Program-made: the position numbers and the translations under genes
Assembly: GCA_028282805.1 (NCBI GenBank)
Contig: JANQHD010000010.1
Location: forward strand, 1-64,000
Source: Phycisphaeraceae bacterium
Lineage (GTDB): Bacteria > Planctomycetota > Phycisphaerae > Phycisphaerales > Zrk34
Reading direction: 5' to 3'
DNA: 64,000 nucleotides
Shown here: positions 19,225 through 60,972 of the stretch, in pieces
Numbering within the stretch: the stretch's first letter is position 1
Layout of the letters: the number at the start of each line of letters is the position of its first letter
Notes under the pieces: model-generated
Told to the model about the DNA's origin: nothing
The model's input: the letters and a program-made list of their open reading frames with translations, nothing else
Database searches by the model: none

Positions 19225-20271
19225 ATGAGCGGCGAGAAGACCCACGACCAACACACCGTGGCGATCGTCGGCGCCGGGCCGGTGGGCCTGGAACTGGCGG
19301 TGGCATTGAAGCGGGCGGGCATCGACTACGTGCAGTTCGACAAGGGCACGGTCGGGCAGACCATGTTCTGGTGGCCGCCGCAGACGCAGTGGTTCAGCTC
19401 GAACGAGCGCATCGCGATCGCCGGCGTGCCACTGCTGACCACCGACCAGCGCAAGGCCACGCGCGAGGAGTACCTGGCGTACCTGCGCACCGTGGCGAGG
19501 ACGTTCGACCTGAAGGTTCGCACGCACGAGCCGGTCACCGACGTCGAACGCGACGGCGAGGGGTTCGTCATCACCTCGAAGCACGGGCAACGGACGCACA
19601 CCTGCCGGGCGCGGAAGCTGGTGCTGGCGGTGGGCGACACGGAGATGCCCAAGCGGCTAAACATACCCGGCGAGGACCTGGCGCACGTGACGCACGTGCT
19701 CGAAGAGCCGCACAAGTATTTTCAGCGCCGGCTGCTGATCGTCGGCGGCAAGAACAGCGCGGTCGAGGCGGCGCTGCGGTGCTGGCACGCGGGCGTCGAG
19801 GTGACGCTGGCCTGCCGCGCCGACGGCATCGACGCCAAGCACGTGAAGTACTGGCTGCGGCCCGAGCTGATCGGCCGGATCAAACGCGGCGAGATCGCCG
19901 CACACTTCGGCGTCGAGCCCGTCGAGATCACGCCCACCCACGCGGTCATGCGCCACGTCAAGACCGACGCGCGGTTCAACCTCGACACCGACTTCGTGCT
20001 GCTGGCCACGGGGTTCGTGGCGGACATGTCGCTGCTGCGCCGGTTGGGTGTCGAGCTGTTGGGCGACAACGAGCTACCCACGTTTGATGAGGACACGATG
20101 GAGACGAACGTGCCCGGCGTGTACGTCGCCGGCACCGCGACCGCCGGCACGCAGAACCGCTACACGGTGTTCTTGGAGAACTGTCACATCCACACGGACC
20201 GGATCGTGCACCACCTGCTGGGCAAGGCGCCCCCGACAACGCCGGAAGACCGGCAGATGCCGGAGACGTGA
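19225..20271 (+). CDS. ypdA: YpdA-family FAD/NAD(P)-dependent disulfide reductase
   Basis: A 348-aa flavoprotein with an N-terminal FAD-binding GxGxxG (VAIVGAGPVGLELA) and a second dinucleotide site (LLIVGGKNSAVEAAL). TQWFSSNERIAIAGVPLLT resembles the YpdA family, in which the enzyme (also called Bdr) reduces bacillithiol disulfide with NADPH. No CxxC redox pair is present, as expected for YpdA and unlike thioredoxin reductase. The bacillithiol synthesis genes at 56-59.5 kb in this window support the assignment. ATG 19225 was chosen because the first 27 upstream codons lack family similarity. Confidence 0.85.
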   Translation: MSGEKTHDQHTVAIVGAGPVGLELAVALKRAGIDYVQFDKGTVGQTMFWWPPQTQWFSSNERIAIAGVPLLTTDQRKATREEYLAYLRTVARTFDLKVRTHEPVTDVERDGEGFVITSKHGQRTHTCRARKLVLAVGDTEMPKRLNIPGEDLAHVTHVLEEPHKYFQRRLLIVGGKNSAVEAALRCWHAGVEVTLACRADGIDAKHVKYWLRPELIGRIKRGEIAAHFGVEPVEITPTHAVMRHVKTDARFNLDTDFVLLATGFVADMSLLRRLGVELLGDNELPTFDEDTMETNVPGVYVAGTATAGTQNRYTVFLENCHIHTDRIVHHLLGKAPPTTPEDRQMPET

Positions 20272-51262: not shown

Positions 51263-51976
51263 TTACTCCGCGCTCTGCCACACTTTCCTGCCCACGAAGA
51301 ACGGCCCCAGGCTCGCGATCCACTGGCTCGTCTGCTTCGTCTTGCGCATCGTCTCCACCAGCTTGCTCAAGGGCGCGAGCGTGCCGCTGACCAGGCCGAC
51401 CACGAAGTCGTTGTCGTGGCGGTCGATGCCGTGGCACGCCAGGCGGATATCGTGCGCCGCGTCGGCCCGGCCGTACTTCATGCCCAGCGTGCCGTGCTCC
51501 ATCAATATCGCGCGCTGCTCGTCCATCGGCAGCTGCTGGAACCCGCCCTTGCGCCGCACCGGGTACCACACCGCCCACGGCCAACCCTCGTCGCGCAGCG
51601 TGCGCCTGGGGCGCTCGACCAGCACGTCGTCGAGGTCCGCCTCGTAACCGATCGCGTACGACCGGCCAAACATGGTCAGCTCCGGCTTCATCTCCAGGTT
51701 GTTGAACGGCGTGCCCTTGTACAGCCGGCGGACGTCTTCGACGAAGTAGTTCTCGTCTTCGCTGTACGTGACGACCGCGATCCCGGTGGGGTCGGCCACG
51801 TCTTCGTACAGCACGCCGCGCACGCCGGTGATCTCCAACGCCTCGATCGCGGCAGCGGTGTCGAAGCAACCGCCGAACGCCTGCAACTGCATGAACAGCC
51901 GGCGGTCGGACGTCGCGCCCTTGGCGCCGTGTTCGGAAAGGTCGAGCGGTTCGGGTTCGTTTAAGGGCATGTTCAT
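51263..51976 (-). CDS. Chlorite dismutase-family heme enzyme (HemQ/ChdC-like)
   Basis: A 237-aa chlorite-dismutase-superfamily protein. WYPVRRKGGFQQLPMDEQRAILMEHG and DIRLACHGIDRHDNDFVVGLVS are the family core; His182 (in ACHG) is the proximal heme ligand position and Tyr138 aligns with the coproheme decarboxylase tyrosine. It is therefore a candidate coproheme decarboxylase, the last step of heme b synthesis in this type of pathway, which fits the cytochrome-rich window. ATG 51976 overlaps the symporter stop (ATGA). Confidence 0.85.
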   Translation of the reverse strand: MNMPLNEPEPLDLSEHGAKGATSDRRLFMQLQAFGGCFDTAAAIEALEITGVRGVLYEDVADPTGIAVVTYSEDENYFVEDVRRLYKGTPFNNLEMKPELTMFGRSYAIGYEADLDDVLVERPRRTLRDEGWPWAVWYPVRRKGGFQQLPMDEQRAILMEHGTLGMKYGRADAAHDIRLACHGIDRHDNDFVVGLVSGTLAPLSKLVETMRKTKQTSQWIASLGPFFVGRKVWQSAE

Positions 51977-53334
51977 GGCGGCACAGCTTCATCCGGGGCG
52001 ATGCGTGTGATGATCTTCGCGCCCACCGCGTCGCCCCAGACGTTCACGGTGGTGCGGCACATATCCAACAGGCGGTCGACGCCGATGATCAACCCGATGC
52101 CCGCGACGAGGATGCCGTTGGTCTCGCCCGCGCCCTCACCGGTGAAGCCGAGCGACTGGTTGACGGCCATGATCACGGTGGGCATCAGCACCAGCGACGC
52201 CGAGGGGATGCCCGCGGCGCCGACGGCCGTGAGCGTCGCGGTCAACGCGATGATGACCAACTCCGCCAGGCCGAGGTCGAACCCGTACGCCTGGGCGATG
52301 AACACCACGGCCACGGCCTCGAACAACGCCGTGCCGTCCATGTTGATCGTCGCGCCGAGCGGCAGCACGAAGCCCGCCGAACGCTTCGACACGCCGCCGA
52401 GCAGCGTCGTGGCCTCGAACGTGACCGGCAGCGTGGCGGAAGACGAGTCCGTGCCGAACGCCGTCATCAACGCGCTGCGCACGCGGTGCATGAACAGATA
52501 CGGGTTGGCCCGGCCGAACACCCACAGCATCAACGGCAGCACGACCAGCGCATGGATGCCCAGGCCCGCGATCACCGTCGACATGTACACCGCGATCGCC
52601 GTGAGGAACACGCCCAAGCCCTTGGCGCCGATCGTCCAGGTGAGCAGGCAGAACACGCCCAGCGGCGCCAGCCAGATCACCACGACCACCATCTTCATCA
52701 TCACGCGGAACACCGCGTCGAAGAACTGGATCACCGGCTCGCCGCGCGGGCCGATCGTGGTCAGCACGATGCCGAAGAAGATGCTGAAAAAGATGATCGG
52801 CAGCACCTGGCCCGACGCGGCGGCGCCGAGCGGGTTTTCGGGGATGATCGAGCGGAAGATCTTCAGCAGCGCCGCGCCGAAACCGCTGGGCCCTTCCTCG
52901 ATCTTCTTTTGCACCTTCTCGGCGGCGGCGAAGTCTTTCTCTGCCTGCGCGACCGCATCGTCACTGATGTACTTGCCGGGGTTGATCAGCGTCACCAGCG
53001 TCAGGCCGATGGTGACCGCGATGAGCATCGTGACCATGTAGTAACCGAGCGTGGCCAGGCCGATCTTGCCCAGCCGGCGGAAGTCGCCCACGCTCGCCAC
53101 GCCCACGATCACCGACGAGATGATCAACGGCATGATGAGCATCTTCAATAAGCGGATGAAGATGTCGTTGCCCACGAACCACAGGCCGGTGCGCCACGAC
53201 TCGTAGGCGGCGGAGTCTTTGATCTGATACAGGCCGTGGCCCGCCAGCGCGCCGAGCAGCAGCGCCACGGCGATCGCCCAGGTGACCCAGCGCAGGCCCG
53301 AGGCGGAATGTGATTCCGATTGTGCGTCCGACAT
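51973..53334 (-). CDS. Dicarboxylate/amino acid:cation symporter
   Basis: A 453-aa DAACS-family (GltP/DctA-like) secondary transporter with eight helices and two re-entrant hairpins. The serine-rich hairpin TAFGTDSSSATLPVT and the substrate/Na segment VLPLGATINMDGTALFEAVAVVFIAQ, plus DRLLDMCRTTVNVWGDAV near the end, are diagnostic. Substrate probably glutamate, aspartate or a C4-dicarboxylate. ATG 53334 was chosen because the previous 12 codons have no support. A charged insert (DDAVAQAEKDFAAAEKVQKKIEEG) lies between the first helices. Confidence 0.93.
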   Translation of the reverse strand: MSDAQSESHSASGLRWVTWAIAVALLLGALAGHGLYQIKDSAAYESWRTGLWFVGNDIFIRLLKMLIMPLIISSVIVGVASVGDFRRLGKIGLATLGYYMVTMLIAVTIGLTLVTLINPGKYISDDAVAQAEKDFAAAEKVQKKIEEGPSGFGAALLKIFRSIIPENPLGAAASGQVLPIIFFSIFFGIVLTTIGPRGEPVIQFFDAVFRVMMKMVVVVIWLAPLGVFCLLTWTIGAKGLGVFLTAIAVYMSTVIAGLGIHALVVLPLMLWVFGRANPYLFMHRVRSALMTAFGTDSSSATLPVTFEATTLLGGVSKRSAGFVLPLGATINMDGTALFEAVAVVFIAQAYGFDLGLAELVIIALTATLTAVGAAGIPSASLVLMPTVIMAVNQSLGFTGEGAGETNGILVAGIGLIIGVDRLLDMCRTTVNVWGDAVGAKIITRIAPDEAVPP

Positions 53335-53385
53335 GCCGGTCAGGGTAGCGGGCGCGGGCGGGCCTGCCAAGAACGCGCCGGGTGG

Positions 53386-56031
53386 TTACCGTTCGATCAC
53401 GTGGTACACGCTGGTCGGCGACAGGCCGATGATCACCGAGCCGCCGTCGGCGGCCCGCTTGACGGTGACGGGCTTGTCGGCGGCGTAGCCGTTCTCGTCG
53501 AGCGGTGTGGCCTTGGCGTTGGCCCAGCGCGAGCCCTTGAGCCGCAGGCCGAGCTTGATCATTTCGACGCCCAGCGGCGCCCCGCCCATGTCGGTGATGC
53601 GCTCGCCGTTGACCTTGAAGCCGTAGGGCTGCTCATGGGTCATCGCCTGCACGAGCAGCTTGTTCGACTCGGCGATCGGCTTGTCGTCGAGCGACACCAC
53701 GACCACGGTCGCGAACGCGTTGGTCTGCTTGATCGCCACGTCGGTCAGTTCGATCACGCCGGCCTTGCCGAGAAAGCCCACCGCGCCCTGGGCGCGCGGG
53801 GTGTCGATGGTGAGCAAACCTTTGGCGTAATCGAGTTTGAGTTCGCCGGTGACGCTTTCGACACGCTTGGCGGCGGGGTCGATGAACTGTTTCAAGTCCG
53901 CTAAACCACGAGCGGCTTTTGGGTTGTCGAACGCGCGTTGCACCTTGCCGACGCAAAAACTCATCGCGCGGTAGTCGTCGATGCTCGGCTTGTGCTCGTG
54001 CGCTTCGGGCACGTCGGCCTGGCGCAGCGCATCGAACGCCGGCACACCGCCCGCCGAACCTTCGAGCGCAAGCACACGATCGATCGACAAACGCTCGACC
54101 ACGACCGGCGGCGACTCGCGCACGTCGCCCCGCCGGTACATCAGCGCCGCGGCGGGCGACGAACCGGCGATCGCCGGGCTCGACCACGCGAACTTGTGCA
54201 TCTGCTTGTCGTCGACGTAGTTGCTGTGGCAGGCGAACAGATACAAACCGTCGATGCCCTGCAGCGCCCCATACGCCGCCGACACGACCGGGCCCTCGGC
54301 CTTGTAGCGGTTGGGGTTCGTCCACCCGAGTTCGCTGACGATCTGCGGGTAGTCTGCGACCTGCCGCACGCGCAGCGGCGACTTGAACGGGCGCAGCGTC
54401 GTGGTGTTGTTGCGGAACGTGTGGCCGACGCGCACCGAATACGCGCTGCCGTCGCCCTCGTGCTTGCCGCCGAAGTAGCCGTGGTGGTCGATCACGTCGG
54501 CCGTGGTGTACGTGTAGCGCTCGACCGCGTCGAGCAGCTTCGGGTCGGCGGTGTGCCAGTTGCCCGCCACGACCAGCCCGCCGTAGCCAAGGTCGGTTTT
54601 GACGTAGCGCGTAGCGCCTTCGTAAAACCCGCGCTGCAACTCGGCGAGGTAGCGCACCTGGTCGGCCATGCGTTTGCGCTTGGCTTGACCGCCCTGGTTC
54701 AAACCCGCGCCCGTCATGTGCCACGCCTCGAGCACAGCGGTGTCTGTCGCACCACCCCACGCGCGTTTCGCCCTGCCAAGCGAACCGTAGCGTTTGGTCA
54801 GCCACGCGTTGAAACCCGCGTCGAGCGTGCGCCACTGCGCCGGCGGTATGTGCTTCTTCGCGAACGTCCAAAAAAACAGCGAGTCCTCGTTGACCAACTC
54901 CACCATCGCCAACGCCGGCTCCGTCGCCAACGGCCGGCCGGTGTACGGGTTCGGCGTGGTGAGTATCTGCCTCAACCACGCGCGGTGGATCGCCTGCATG
55001 CGCGGGTTGAAGTAAATCAGCGCGAAGCTCTTTTGGTTTTGGCCGTAACCTTCGATGCCCTGGCTGTCGCGCACGTCGAACCACAGCGGAAAATAAAAGC
55101 TCACCGTCGTGTAAATGCCCTGCTTTCTCATCGCGGCGATGAGGTAGTGCAGGTCGTCGAGCCGCTTGGCGTCGATGGCCTCGCCGTCGCCGGCGTCTTC
55201 GAACAGCGGCGAGTGGTAACGCACCATGTTCACGCCGAGCTTGGCGAGCTTGCGCGCGAGGTAGTCGACGGTCTGCCGGTTCTGCCCGGCGTTCTCGGCG
55301 CTCAGGTTCACCGCCCAGAACCGCACGCGCTTCCCATCGCCCAACACGAGGTGTTCGCCGTCGCGCCGCACGAAGCCGTTGACGCCCGCCTCGGTCTCGT
55401 TCAGGCGCCGCAGGTCGAGCAGCGCATCGTCACCAAACGTGTCGACGCCCGGCTCCCACGCGAAATAACCCCTGTCCGCCCGGCCCGAACGGAAGCCCGG
55501 CTTGTGCTTGCCGTTGGGCACGAACAGGTGCGGCGTCAGCACAAAGCAGTCAAACCCGCTGACCTTGCCCTCGCGCTCCTTGACCGTGAGCCGCAGCTCG
55601 AAATCGTGCTTGCCCTTCGCGAGCTTGACCTGCCCGAGGTACACCCAGTTCGCCGAAACGTGCGTGCGCAGCGGCACGCTGTCGGCCAGCGCTACGCCCT
55701 TGCCGCAGTGTTGCCAGGGTTGGTCGTCGAAGCGCCACTTGAACGAGCCGTGTTTCCAGAACTTGCGGCACCACAGCGCGTACTCGCCGTCGGCGTCGAC
55801 GTTGATGCGGTACCGCGCGTACGCCTCGCCCTCACCGGGCTTGCGGCCCTTGTCGTTCGTCAGCCAGTCGCCGCCGCTGAGCTTCGCCGCCTCGTTGCCC
55901 TGCGGGCTGAACCACGTTTTTTCAGGGAAGTTCGTGTCGGTGGCCGCTTCGCCTTCCCACCACACGTAATCCGCCGCGCCCGACGCGGTCGCCGCCCACA
56001 ACACCGCCAACAAGCACCACCGATACCGCAT
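53386..56031 (-). CDS. Secreted glycoside hydrolase-like protein with N-terminal beta domain
   Basis: An 881-aa exported protein. Signal peptide at residues 1-19 (ATASGA). An N-terminal carbohydrate-binding-like domain (residues 20-165, WWEGEAATDTNFPEKTW onward) is followed by a TIM-barrel domain of clan GH-A (about 200-640): LGVNMVRYHSPLFEDAGDG, and ALAMVELVNEDSLFFW with the Asn-Glu catalytic acid/base position. A final beta domain ends the protein. Family and substrate are uncertain (GH5-like). It starts 3 bp after bshA and is probably in that operon. Confidence 0.8.
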   Translation of the reverse strand: MRYRWCLLAVLWAATASGAADYVWWEGEAATDTNFPEKTWFSPQGNEAAKLSGGDWLTNDKGRKPGEGEAYARYRINVDADGEYALWCRKFWKHGSFKWRFDDQPWQHCGKGVALADSVPLRTHVSANWVYLGQVKLAKGKHDFELRLTVKEREGKVSGFDCFVLTPHLFVPNGKHKPGFRSGRADRGYFAWEPGVDTFGDDALLDLRRLNETEAGVNGFVRRDGEHLVLGDGKRVRFWAVNLSAENAGQNRQTVDYLARKLAKLGVNMVRYHSPLFEDAGDGEAIDAKRLDDLHYLIAAMRKQGIYTTVSFYFPLWFDVRDSQGIEGYGQNQKSFALIYFNPRMQAIHRAWLRQILTTPNPYTGRPLATEPALAMVELVNEDSLFFWTFAKKHIPPAQWRTLDAGFNAWLTKRYGSLGRAKRAWGGATDTAVLEAWHMTGAGLNQGGQAKRKRMADQVRYLAELQRGFYEGATRYVKTDLGYGGLVVAGNWHTADPKLLDAVERYTYTTADVIDHHGYFGGKHEGDGSAYSVRVGHTFRNNTTTLRPFKSPLRVRQVADYPQIVSELGWTNPNRYKAEGPVVSAAYGALQGIDGLYLFACHSNYVDDKQMHKFAWSSPAIAGSSPAAALMYRRGDVRESPPVVVERLSIDRVLALEGSAGGVPAFDALRQADVPEAHEHKPSIDDYRAMSFCVGKVQRAFDNPKAARGLADLKQFIDPAAKRVESVTGELKLDYAKGLLTIDTPRAQGAVGFLGKAGVIELTDVAIKQTNAFATVVVVSLDDKPIAESNKLLVQAMTHEQPYGFKVNGERITDMGGAPLGVEMIKLGLRLKGSRWANAKATPLDENGYAADKPVTVKRAADGGSVIIGLSPTSVYHVIER

Positions 56032-56034
56032 GCC

Positions 56035-57168
56035 TCACCCCCGCACCGGCGCCGCGGCGACCTGTTCGTAAAACGCCTCGTAGCGCGGCATGATCAGTTC
56101 CTTGCAGAAGCGCATGCGCGCCCGGTGCTCCGCGGCCACGCTCATGTTCACCCACGCGTCGCGGTCGCCGAGCAAAGCGATCGCTCTCTTCGCCATGCAG
56201 GCGACGTCGCCGACCTTGCACAGGTGCCCGCTGACGCCGTCTTCGATCACCTCGACCAGGCCGCCGCTGCGCGTGCCCAGCACGGGCGTGCCGCACGCCA
56301 GCGCCTCGAGCGCGCTCAGACCGAACGACTCGTAATCGCTGAGCAGCATGAACAGGTGGCTGTCGCGGTAGGCTCGCTCGATGTCGTCGCGCCGGCCGAC
56401 GAAGTCGACCTTGTTGGCGATGCCCAATTCCGCCGCCAGTTCCTGCGCGCAGCCGTGCTCGGGCCCTTCGCCCACCATGGTCAACCGCGCCGGCAGCTCG
56501 CGCTGCACCGCTTCGAACACGCGGATCACGTCGTACACCCGCTTGACCGGCCGGAAGTTGCTCACGTGCAACAGCTCGAACGGCTCGCCGTTTTCGGGGT
56601 ACCGCAAACGCTCGTCGGTGGTGAACCGCGCGCAGTCGACGAAGTTCGGTATCACCGCCGGCGGCTCGTCGAGGTCGAACTCTTCCTGCGTGCGGTCGGC
56701 CAGCCACTGGCTCACCGCCGTGGTGCCGTCGTTGCGCGTCATCGCGTAGCGACACACCCGGTAGAAGTCGTGGTGCGAGCCGACCAGCGTGATGTCCGTG
56801 CCGTGCACCGTGGTAACGACCTTGACCGGCGTGGTGCACGAACACAACATGTCGCGCGCCAGCATCGCGCTGACCGCGTGCGGCACCGCGTAGTGCGCGT
56901 GGATCACGTCGAGCCCCACGTCGGCCGCCACCTGCGCCAGCTTGTTCGCCAGGTTCAAGTCGTGCGGCGGGTAGCGGAACAACGGGTACTCCGTCACGTT
57001 GACCTTGTGAAAGTGCAGGTTGTCGTGCCGGCCCAAACGGAACGGCCGCTCGTAGCTGACCACGTGCACCTGGTGCCCGCGCTGGGCCAGCGCCACCGCC
57101 AGCTCCGTGGCGACGACGCCGCTCCCGCCCTGCGTAGGGTGACATGAAATCGCGATCTTCATCTGCAT
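56035..57168 (-). CDS. bshA: N-acetyl-alpha-D-glucosaminyl L-malate synthase
   Basis: A 377-aa GT4 glycosyltransferase that couples UDP-GlcNAc to L-malate, the first step of bacillithiol synthesis. KIAISCHPTQGGSGVVATELAVALAQRGH is the BshA N-terminal signature, and VVTTVHGTDITLVGS and SDYESFGLSALEALACGTPVLGT complete the retaining-GT4 sites. It lies 34 bp after bshB1. ATG 57168 or 57162 could start it. Confidence 0.95.
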   Translation of the reverse strand: MQMKIAISCHPTQGGSGVVATELAVALAQRGHQVHVVSYERPFRLGRHDNLHFHKVNVTEYPLFRYPPHDLNLANKLAQVAADVGLDVIHAHYAVPHAVSAMLARDMLCSCTTPVKVVTTVHGTDITLVGSHHDFYRVCRYAMTRNDGTTAVSQWLADRTQEEFDLDEPPAVIPNFVDCARFTTDERLRYPENGEPFELLHVSNFRPVKRVYDVIRVFEAVQRELPARLTMVGEGPEHGCAQELAAELGIANKVDFVGRRDDIERAYRDSHLFMLLSDYESFGLSALEALACGTPVLGTRSGGLVEVIEDGVSGHLCKVGDVACMAKRAIALLGDRDAWVNMSVAAEHRARMRFCKELIMPRYEAFYEQVAAAPVRG

Positions 57169-57202
57169 CACCAACCGGGCCCTGCGGGCCCGCGCTAAAC
57201 GG

Positions 57203-57970
57203 TTACTGAACGGGCAGCTCGCCGAGTTCCGGGTGCGTGTTGGCCGACGCGTGCACCTTGCCGAACGGCTCGTACACCGCCACCGGGTCTTCGATCGGCA
57301 CGGGCCGGCGCACCAAAAACGGCTCACCGAACTCGCGGTAGATCATGTTGCCGTAGTTCCGCGCCCGCCCTTCCAGTCGCTTGATGAACGTCGGCTCGGC
57401 GATCAGCGTCTCCAACCCGTCGACCGTCTGGTCGTGCAGCTGCGACATGTAACACTTGACCGACTCGATCTTCTGCTCCCAGTAGTCGGTCACGTCGACG
57501 ATGAAGCTCGGCTCGAACGGCGTGTGCGCCATGAAATACAGGTACTCGTGCGGCCGGTACGGCGTGCCCTTGGCCGGGTAGTTCGCGAAGCCCGAAGGGT
57601 ACATCGTGTCGCGCACGATCATGCCCGTCGCCGAGTGGTCGGGGTGCAAATCGTCCCAGTAGTGCGTGAGCACCAGCTTCGGGCGCAGCCGGCGGATCTG
57701 CTCGACCACCGCCACGCGCGCCGCGAGCGTGTTCTCCATGCGCCCATCCGGCTGTTCGAGGTTGATGCGTTCGCACACACCCAACACACGCGCCGCTTCC
57801 GCCGCTTCCTGCTCGCGCGTCTCCGGGGTGCCGCGTGTGCCCATCTCGCCGCGTGTCATGTCGATGATCGCCACGCGGTAACCGCGGTCGACCATCTTCG
57901 CCACGGTCCCGCCGCATATCATTTCGACGTCGTCGGGGTGGGCGCCGATCGCCAGCACGTCCACGCTCAT
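57203..57970 (-). CDS. bshB1: Bacillithiol biosynthesis deacetylase BshB1
   Basis: A 255-aa PIG-L/LmbE-type zinc amidase that deacetylates GlcNAc-malate. The zinc motif is H11-P-D-D (AIGAHPDDVEMICGG), and the third ligand lies in DDLHPDHSATG. GEMGTRGTPETREQEAAEAARVLG is typical of BshB1. AAGGAG precedes ATG 57970, which overlaps the bshC stop by ATGA. Confidence 0.95.
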   Translation of the reverse strand: MSVDVLAIGAHPDDVEMICGGTVAKMVDRGYRVAIIDMTRGEMGTRGTPETREQEAAEAARVLGVCERINLEQPDGRMENTLAARVAVVEQIRRLRPKLVLTHYWDDLHPDHSATGMIVRDTMYPSGFANYPAKGTPYRPHEYLYFMAHTPFEPSFIVDVTDYWEQKIESVKCYMSQLHDQTVDGLETLIAEPTFIKRLEGRARNYGNMIYREFGEPFLVRRPVPIEDPVAVYEPFGKVHASANTHPELGELPVQ

Positions 57971-59499
57971 GTTTCTTCTCCTTGCACTACAACAACCTCG
58001 TGCGCGATCGTGGTCGGGTCGGCCGACTCGATCCACTGATCGAGCGCCCCGCGCCCGTGCCGCGCGATCAATTCAAACACGTTCATCACCCGCTCCTGCG
58101 GCGCCCCGCCGGGCATGATCGCTTCCCACAGCGTACGCCGGTCGCGCTCGCCCCGGCCGGCGTCGTTCAAGCGGTCGGCCTGCACACGCCGCAACACGCG
58201 CCGTACCTGGTACGCGATCGACCGCCGGGCCCGCGCGATCAGCTTGCGGTTACGCCCGTCGTCGAGTTCGCCCAAGCGGCGTGACAGCTCGTCGCCCATC
58301 GCCTCGATGTCGCTCAAATCGCTGTCCAACGCCCCGGCCCGATCGTGCGCAGCGCAAACCTCGAACAACCGCTCGGCCGACAGCCCCAAACGCTCGGCGA
58401 TATTCAGCGCAAACCGGTCGACCCACGTCGCGCTCAGCCGCGGCCAGAGCGCCGAGCGCGTCAGCCCCACCGCGTCGTACAGGCCGTCGATCTGCCATTG
58501 GTACAGCATCTCGCTCGGCCCGCCCACCGTCGCCGCCACGGGCAACGCGTTGTCCTGCACAATCGGTCGAAGCCCCGCGCCCGCGCTGTACCGCTCGGGT
58601 TCGCGCCGCACGTCGTCGCCGCCAACCTTGTCACGCACGGGCCGCCGCACGCCGTCGACTATTTCGAACAGCGTCAGCTTCTCCAACTGCGGCTCGAACC
58701 CCTCGGCCCGCAGCCGCTCGCCGCCCCGCGCGAACGCCTCGTGGGCCGCGTCCAACCGGTCCACCACCTGCGCCAGCGCCGGCGCGAGCACGTCGCGCAA
58801 CCGCATCGGGTCGATTAACACAAACCGCCCCTCACCGAACAGTTGCACGAACAACGAGGTGAACAGCGTCGCGTAGTTCGTAAAGTCCGCCTGCGCCACC
58901 GCGTCGATCACCCACCGCCGGTCCGCCGTGGGCGGCAGGTGCTGCTGCAAGTCTGCAATCACCGCGTCGCGCTGCGCCCGCAGCGAAACCCCGCCCACCG
59001 GCGGGCGCTGCGCCGCGTTGCGTAACTCGTTGTGATCCGCCCGAAACTCGTGCGAGCCGACGTGGTAGTGGTCGACTTCCGCCAAGTCGTGGTCTTCGCT
59101 CGCGACCCAGAACGCCGGCACCAGCGGCAACGCATCGCTGCTCATACATCGACACAGCCGCAGCACCGTCACCGCCTTGTACACCGTGTACAGCGGCCCG
59201 AGCAGCAAGCCCGGCTGCTGACCCGCCACGATCAACCACCCGTTCGTGCGCAGCGCATCGACCGCTTCGTCACCAAGCGGGTTGCCGACCGATGCGTTGT
59301 ACTCGACCAGCCGCTGCGTCATCAGCGCCCGATCAACCGTGGCCGGCTCGTCGCGCCGTGGCGGGCGGGCGCAATCGAGCAACGGCAAGCCCGTCGGCAC
59401 GTCGCCCGCGCCCAGCCGTTGCCACAACGCCCCGCCGATCGGCGTTCGGTCGTACGGCAACGCGTGCCGCCGCAACGTGCTGCTCAGCAAACCTTTCAC
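57967..59499 (-). CDS. bshC: Bacillithiol biosynthesis cysteine-adding enzyme BshC
   Basis: A 510-aa putative cysteine ligase finishing bacillithiol. IVAGQQPGLLLGPLYTVYKAVTVLRL and FWVASEDHDLAEVDHYHV are BshC family hallmarks; the long helical C-terminal part is usual. It overlaps both the methyltransferase upstream (ATGA at 59496) and bshB1 downstream, so the three are tightly coupled. The pathway is completed by bshA and, for recycling, by the YpdA-like protein at 19225. Confidence 0.95.
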   Translation of the reverse strand: MKGLLSSTLRRHALPYDRTPIGGALWQRLGAGDVPTGLPLLDCARPPRRDEPATVDRALMTQRLVEYNASVGNPLGDEAVDALRTNGWLIVAGQQPGLLLGPLYTVYKAVTVLRLCRCMSSDALPLVPAFWVASEDHDLAEVDHYHVGSHEFRADHNELRNAAQRPPVGGVSLRAQRDAVIADLQQHLPPTADRRWVIDAVAQADFTNYATLFTSLFVQLFGEGRFVLIDPMRLRDVLAPALAQVVDRLDAAHEAFARGGERLRAEGFEPQLEKLTLFEIVDGVRRPVRDKVGGDDVRREPERYSAGAGLRPIVQDNALPVAATVGGPSEMLYQWQIDGLYDAVGLTRSALWPRLSATWVDRFALNIAERLGLSAERLFEVCAAHDRAGALDSDLSDIEAMGDELSRRLGELDDGRNRKLIARARRSIAYQVRRVLRRVQADRLNDAGRGERDRRTLWEAIMPGGAPQERVMNVFELIARHGRGALDQWIESADPTTIAHEVVVVQGEET

Positions 59500-60245
59500 G
59501 ACCGCACCCCCACCACGATCATGCGCGGCTTGCCTTCATCGAACGGCTCGCCGTCCATCGATCCGAAAATACCCGTTACCGCGAGCCCCGCGCCGGCGAA
59601 CCACGCGGCGATCTCGTCGGGCGTAAACAACCGTACGCGCTCGATCAACTCATTGATCGAGCCGTCGGCGTGCGTGCAGGTCGTGCGCTTGACCACACGG
59701 TCGCCTTCGATGCTGCGCCGGTTGTGCACGGCCATGCCACCGACGGCCCGCGTGTCTTCCGGCACGAGGTTCGCCACGACGTGGTCACGGTTGGCGTGGT
59801 CCATCAACAGCCGCCCGCCCGGCCGCAGCACCTTCGCCATCTGCCGCAGCGCCGCGCGGTTCTCGTCGTCCGACTCGAAGTAACCGAAGCTCGTGAACAG
59901 GTTGGTCGCCGCGTCGAACTCGTTTTCAAACGGCAGCGCCCGCACGTCCGCCCGCACCAGCCGCCCGGCCAAGCGCGGCCGCCGCTCCGCCTCAGCCAGC
60001 AGCGGTTCACTCAGGTCCACACCCATCACATCAAAACCCGCCTCGGCCATCGCCTCGGCGTGACGCCCGGCGCCGCAGCAGATATCCAGCACGCGCTCGC
60101 CGCCGGTCAGCCCCAGCAGTTCGACCGCACCCGCCGCTTCCCGCCGGGCCGAGGCGTCGTCGCGGTGGTGGTAGACCAACGGGTAATGCTCACCGAACGC
60201 GGTGATAAACCAGTCAGGTTCGGGTTGTGTGGTCTGCACGTTCAT
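59496..60245 (-). CDS. SAM-dependent methyltransferase in the bacillithiol operon
   Basis: A 249-aa class I methyltransferase. SAM motif I is VLDICCGAGRHAEAMAEAGF, followed by the acidic VMGVDLSEPLL and the post-motif FTSFGYFESDDENRAALRQM seen in small-molecule methyltransferases. Its stop overlaps the bshC start, so it heads the bacillithiol operon. Some bacteria make N-methyl-bacillithiol through a SAM methyltransferase (NmbA, described in green sulfur bacteria); this gene is a candidate for such a step, an inference from position only. Confidence 0.85.
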   Translation of the reverse strand: MNVQTTQPEPDWFITAFGEHYPLVYHHRDDASARREAAGAVELLGLTGGERVLDICCGAGRHAEAMAEAGFDVMGVDLSEPLLAEAERRPRLAGRLVRADVRALPFENEFDAATNLFTSFGYFESDDENRAALRQMAKVLRPGGRLLMDHANRDHVVANLVPEDTRAVGGMAVHNRRSIEGDRVVKRTTCTHADGSINELIERVRLFTPDEIAAWFAGAGLAVTGIFGSMDGEPFDEGKPRMIVVGVRS

Positions 60246-60369: not shown

Positions 60370-60972
60370 ATGATCGAAACCATCGCCGATCTTTTCCACC
60401 GTGGCGGGTGGGTGATGTACCTGCTGGTGCCGTTGAGCATCGTCGCCCTGACGCTCATCGTCGAACGCCTGTGGTTCTGGTGGCGCACCAACAACATCCG
60501 CTCCTTCACCCGCTACCAGCACGTCGCCCGACACCTGCGCGCCGGCGAACACGCCGCGGCCCAACAGCTCGTGGCCCGCGACCGGTCCGTCTACGGCCGG
60601 CTCGTGAGCAGCATGCTCGAAGAGAACGCCTCCGACGCCGTCGTCACCGAGGCCGTTGAAAACCAGCGCCCGCGCATGGAACGCTTCATGCCCACGCTCA
60701 ACACCTTCATCACCGCCGCGCCCATGCTCGGCATCATCGGCACCGTCACCGGCATCATCGCCTCGTTCAACGTGCTCAGCGAGGCCGACGTGGTCACCGA
60801 CCCGTCCAAGCTCGGCGGCGGCATCGCCGAGGCGCTGCTGACCACCGTCGTCGGCCTGGTCGTCGCCCTGGTCGTGCTGTTCCCCTACAACGCCTTCAGC
60901 GCACAGATCGACCGCACGCTCGGCCGGATGGAAGCCCTCGTCGCCGCCTACCGCACCGGCGTCGCCGAGTAA
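60370..60972 (+). CDS. MotA/TolQ/ExbB proton channel family protein
   Basis: A 200-aa inner-membrane protein of the ExbB/TolQ type with three helices (GWVMYLLVPLSIVALTLIVERLW, then TFITAAPMLGIIGTVTGIIASFNVL and LLTTVVGLVVALVVLFPYNAF). The TxxPxLGxxGTVxGxxxxF and conserved helix-3 Thr are present. No exbD/tolR partner is adjacent; the next gene is on the opposite strand. It powers outer-membrane transport or motility-like stators in relatives. Confidence 0.9.
   Translation: MIETIADLFHRGGWVMYLLVPLSIVALTLIVERLWFWWRTNNIRSFTRYQHVARHLRAGEHAAAQQLVARDRSVYGRLVSSMLEENASDAVVTEAVENQRPRMERFMPTLNTFITAAPMLGIIGTVTGIIASFNVLSEADVVTDPSKLGGGIAEALLTTVVGLVVALVVLFPYNAFSAQIDRTLGRMEALVAAYRTGVAE

Follow-up and report, generated by a model that had tools for sequence, protein, structure and literature searches.

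Which thiol would a bacterium make when a methyltransferase gene stands at the head of its bacillithiol (bsh) genes? The locus that raises this question lies in a 64-kb window (the whole stretch of DNA analysed, positions 1-64000 of one contig) of a planctomycete genome of 3.9 Mb that is 99.8% complete. Planctomycetes were described in 2018 as a major lineage without a documented or predicted low-molecular-weight thiol (PMC6282198), and the reading favored below, that the operon directs the synthesis of N-methyl-bacillithiol, offers a testable answer to what shields planctomycete cells from oxidants and metals.

Layout and gene content of the bsh locus

Four genes with intact reading frames run head to tail on the minus strand at 56035-60245, in the order methyltransferase, bshC, bshB1 and bshA. 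The coordinates bear out the preliminary description of this DNA, which had bshC, bshB1 and bshA complete and in order and a SAM methyltransferase overlapping bshC by four bases: the stop codon of the methyltransferase and the GTG start of bshC share the motif GTGA at 59496-59499. To this can be added a second 4-nt overlap, ATGA at 57967-57970, between bshC and bshB1, while the gap from bshB1 to bshA is 40 nt. The features relevant to the argument are as follows.

59496-60245, minus strand: nmbA, predicted SAM-dependent bacillithiol N-methyltransferase, 249 aa, ATG start (match to 9RI2, tree, diagnostic residues)
57967-59499, minus strand: bshC, cysteine-adding enzyme, 510 aa, GTG start (TIGR03998, PF10079, PF24850, 4WBD)
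57203-57970, minus strand: bshB1, GlcNAc-malate deacetylase, 255 aa (TIGR04001, PDB 6P2T)
56035-57162, minus strand: bshA, GlcNAc-malate synthase, 375 aa from the ATG at 57162 (TIGR03999, PDB 2JJM and 5D00)
53386-56031, minus strand: secreted glycosidase-like protein of 881 aa, starting 3 nt after bshA, in the same place in two genomes of the same family (G313, G317)
51973-53370, minus strand: SDF-family dicarboxylate/acidic amino acid symporter (PF00375, 372 bits)
60370-60972, plus strand: MotA/TolQ/ExbB-type gene, divergent from nmbA and located upstream of it in each of the family's six bsh-positive genomes
19258-20220, plus strand: YpdA/Bdr-like FAD-dependent reductase (TIGR04018, 311 bits, under the cut-off of 339.9; PDB 7A76 and 7A7B, Bdr)

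BshA and BshB1 score above the curated NCBIfam cut-offs of their families (465.2 vs. 273.7 bits for TIGR03999 and 262.6 vs. 182.5 bits for TIGR04001, respectively), and their sequences match solved structures, 2JJM and 5D00 for BshA and, for BshB1, 6P2T, entitled 'N-acetyl-alpha-D-glucosaminyl L-malate deacetylase 1'. The third enzyme is more divergent. Since its TIGR03998 score (236.9 bits, E 5e-70) is under the curated NCBIfam cut-off of 265.8, we name it BshC-like based on its Pfam domains (PF10079 and PF24850, both over their gathering scores) and its context; among PDB sequences it matches 4WBD alone, a solved structure of BshC (E 1e-26). Scores of this kind are common in the phylum, where only 55 of the 149 planctomycete genomes that match BshC reach the TIGR03998 cut-off. 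Taken together, we consider it highly likely that the four genes constitute a complete N-methyl-bacillithiol biosynthesis operon, presumably transcribed as one unit.

The operon may extend further in this family. The SDF symporter gene comes after bshA, either directly or behind the 881-aa gene, in the source genome (G000) and in G313, G299 and G309; in G209, of the same family, it lies about 6 kb off, and in G317 the contig ends inside the 881-aa gene. Neither gene was seen beside bsh genes in the other planctomycete loci examined, and the 881-aa protein had no match in Pfam, NCBIfam or PDB. It is possible that the 881-aa gene is co-transcribed with the operon and that the symporter is a family-specific operon extension, in which case the pair could serve precursor uptake.

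Identity of the methyltransferase

The best PDB sequence match of the methyltransferase is 9RI2, the NmbA of Chlorobaculum tepidum, with an E-value of 5e-39 vs. 3e-16 for the runner-up. The published criteria for NmbA are E < 1e-20, > 25% identity and > 80% coverage; a genome that encodes BshA, BshB and BshC is a further expectation. The alignment to the C. tepidum protein (CtNmbA) covers residues 11-245 of 249 at 36% identity, with the caveat that our E-value comes from phmmer against PDB and the published search was BLAST against RefSeq, and all three bsh genes are found in nmbA's own operon. Identity to the Paenibacillus NmbAs is 37-42%. Model scores for daptide methyltransferases, UbiE, BioC and glycine/sarcosine N-methyltransferases were all far under their cut-offs, and these identities were discarded. 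The preliminary description had placed NmbA in green sulfur bacteria and had named it as the protein to compare with; the likeness is borne out, whereas the distribution has to be drawn wider, as NmbA is reported from 1765 species, with sparse members in several phyla and two enzymes assayed (PMC12719100, 2025).

Phylogeny and residue conservation point the same way. In a quick maximum-likelihood tree of 130 rows, whose deep forks are weak, the protein falls with its counterparts from the same family (support 97), within the planctomycete NmbAs. The experimentally supported lineages (C. tepidum, Paenibacillus and Bacteroidota) occupy neighbouring branches, and the paralogues from bsh-less genomes of the order branch apart as a clade of their own (SH-aLRT 95). 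Six residues (Y25, R28, D149, R177, K186 and E202) do not vary among the bsh-linked planctomycete proteins and CtNmbA; they are nearly always kept in other NmbAs, the exception being K for R177 in 12 of the 61 non-operon rows, and are varied or lost in the bsh-less paralogues. These diagnostic residues may take part in substrate binding; the substrate cleft of NmbA is described as holding conserved arginines (PMC12719100). Hence, by sequence, tree, diagnostic residues and the co-occurrence described below, the predicted protein is an NmbA.

The preliminary description had called for a comparison with the NmbA structure. An AlphaFold2 model of the methyltransferase (pLDDT 92.8) returned 9RI2 as its top Foldseek match, but VIA-align did not set 9RI2 (Z 25.9) apart from several other methyltransferases of small molecules (Z 25-26), and the substrate therefore cannot be read from the fold by itself. 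Further, AlphaFold is reported to mispredict the Cap domain of NmbA (PMC12719100), whose strand order in the 9RI2 crystal is unusual, and the predicted pocket is therefore not to be trusted.

Alternatively, the enzyme might methylate a precursor or yield another derivative of bacillithiol (S-methyl, malate O-methyl or N,N-dimethyl). An identity to CtNmbA of only 36% leaves some room for such a shift, and NmbA is also reported to act on the secondary amine of a by-product (PMC12719100). We nevertheless regard this outcome as very unlikely, given that the NmbA-specific residues are unchanged and that the protein groups in the tree with NmbAs of lineages with verified activity. Widening the alternative to include a role of the 881-aa and symporter extension in thiol metabolism (e.g., import of malate or amino acid precursors) still gives it only a slim chance, although the cluster would then represent a new variant of thiol supply.

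Distribution of nmbA and the bsh genes

Across a sample of 294 planctomycete genomes, 130 encode a close NmbA (E < about 1e-29, a line set after seeing the output), and bshC is present in 122 of these 130 vs. 27 of the 164 others (Fisher 7e-45, ignoring kinship). About half of the sample (149 genomes) carries bshC, at least 122 of them together with nmbA; a close NmbA without bshC occurs in eight genomes, most of them incomplete. The association is sharper still in the order of the source genome, in which bshC and a close NmbA are found in the identical six of 121 genomes, all of its own family. The two genes are tightly co-inherited. The preliminary description had held that a methyltransferase conserved in relatives without bsh genes would count against a modified bacillithiol. 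Homologues do exist in bsh-less genomes of the order, at E 5e-28 or weaker, but with their diagnostic residues varied or lost they are paralogues and carry no weight against the assignment; given the co-occurrence across the phylum and the identical six genomes in the order, this genomic objection fails.

Gene order adds to the association. In 59 of the 294 genomes, from 21 families, nmbA is the immediate upstream neighbour of bshC and shares its strand, and a layout that recurs this often is not due to chance. Almost every planctomycete locus read over its full length keeps the order nmbA-bshC-bshB-bshA (one, L076, is without bshB there), with the limitation that these loci were preselected for nmbA near bshC, so that only the positions of bshB and bshA count as independent evidence. 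An unrelated methyltransferase, with a housekeeping or natural-product role and beside bshC only by accident, is thus extremely unlikely. Enzymes of class I abound, and this one weakly matches many families, but the adjacency in 59 genomes of 21 families and the strict co-presence with bshC in the order speak against a chance neighbour. Elsewhere, the nmbA loci of Bacteroidota, Paenibacillus, Chlorobiota and Ignavibacteria had no bsh gene beside nmbA within flanks of up to 6 kb. As a separate observation, nmbA is present in an Aquimarina genome as a tandem pair of almost identical copies (L122:6010-7930).

Redox partners were also considered. Bacilliredoxin (PF06491) occurs in five of the 121 genomes of the order, all five among the six bsh-positive ones (p 3e-8, ignoring phylogeny), and in the source genome its gene lies outside the operon (G000:C56:169898-170296). 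The reductase at 19258-20220 is possibly a bacillithiol-disulfide reductase. YpdA was discarded as a marker of bacillithiol use, being found in 58 of the 121 genomes, with or without bsh genes and never over the cut-off. That the operon is a foreign acquisition, unexpressed or non-functional, is suggested by its restriction within the order to one family (six of nine sampled genomes, vs. none of the other 112), yet we give this almost no credence in view of the four intact frames, the co-occurring bacilliredoxin and a gene order that the six family members share to the extent that their contigs show it.

Proposed pathway and relation to known systems

We thus favor the reading that the planctomycete host very probably makes N-methyl-bacillithiol, in line with the modified bacillithiol that the preliminary description had suggested for a planctomycete-like organism; the host belongs to Planctomycetota. 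The proposed route would follow the published one, i.e., UDP-GlcNAc and malate (BshA), deacetylation (BshB), cysteine (BshC) and SAM-dependent N-methylation (NmbA) (PMC6282198, PMC12719100). Specifically, BshA would join UDP-GlcNAc and L-malate, BshB1 would take off the acetyl group, BshC would add cysteine to give bacillithiol, and the NmbA orthologue encoded by the first gene would use SAM to methylate the cysteine nitrogen of bacillithiol. The product would act as the redox-buffering thiol of the cell, with the bacilliredoxin encoded elsewhere in the genome. We infer the N-methylation reaction and its thiol product in this host from orthology with the C. tepidum and P. polymyxa enzymes, which methylate bacillithiol in vitro (PMC12719100); deletion of nmbA in C. 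tepidum abolishes N-methyl-bacillithiol, a thiol of 412 Da (PMC6282198). If the same holds across the phylum, producers of this thiol may make up perhaps two fifths of the planctomycete sample.

The chemistry is already known; what seems to be new against the literature we found is how the genes are distributed among planctomycetes and that the four of them form a conserved operon. The main text of PMC12719100 does not name Planctomycetes among the NmbA phyla, and we found no paper on bacillithiol in planctomycetes, as judged by title and abstract. The distribution seems under-reported. Organized as one operon, the pathway could also easily be transferred to a laboratory host as a whole.

The arrangement described here is shared with other phyla. 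The order nmbA-bshC-bshB-bshA is also found in Hydrogenedentota, Lentisphaerota and one Thermoanaerobaculia genome (an acidobacterium), where the contig allows, and nmbA-bshC in Gemmatimonadota, and in each case nmbA immediately precedes bshC on a shared strand; we found no description of these operons in the literature. A gene order conserved over several phyla is a useful marker for annotating NmbA among look-alike methyltransferases. Compared with the Bacillus pathway, the three enzymes BshA, BshB1 and BshC are common to both, with BshA and BshB1 over the curated cut-offs here, whereas the planctomycete operon has an extra methyltransferase and a divergent BshC that is under its cut-off. 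The closest counterparts are CtNmbA (CT1040) and the P. polymyxa NmbA, class I methyltransferases of similar length with the same SAM motifs and the same invariant residues outside the SAM site, encoded in genomes that also carry bshA, bshB and bshC. Apart from the 36% identity to CtNmbA, a difference lies in the organization: in C. tepidum the locus numbers are widely separated (CT0548, CT1419, CT1558 and CT1040), whereas in the window nmbA heads the bsh operon.
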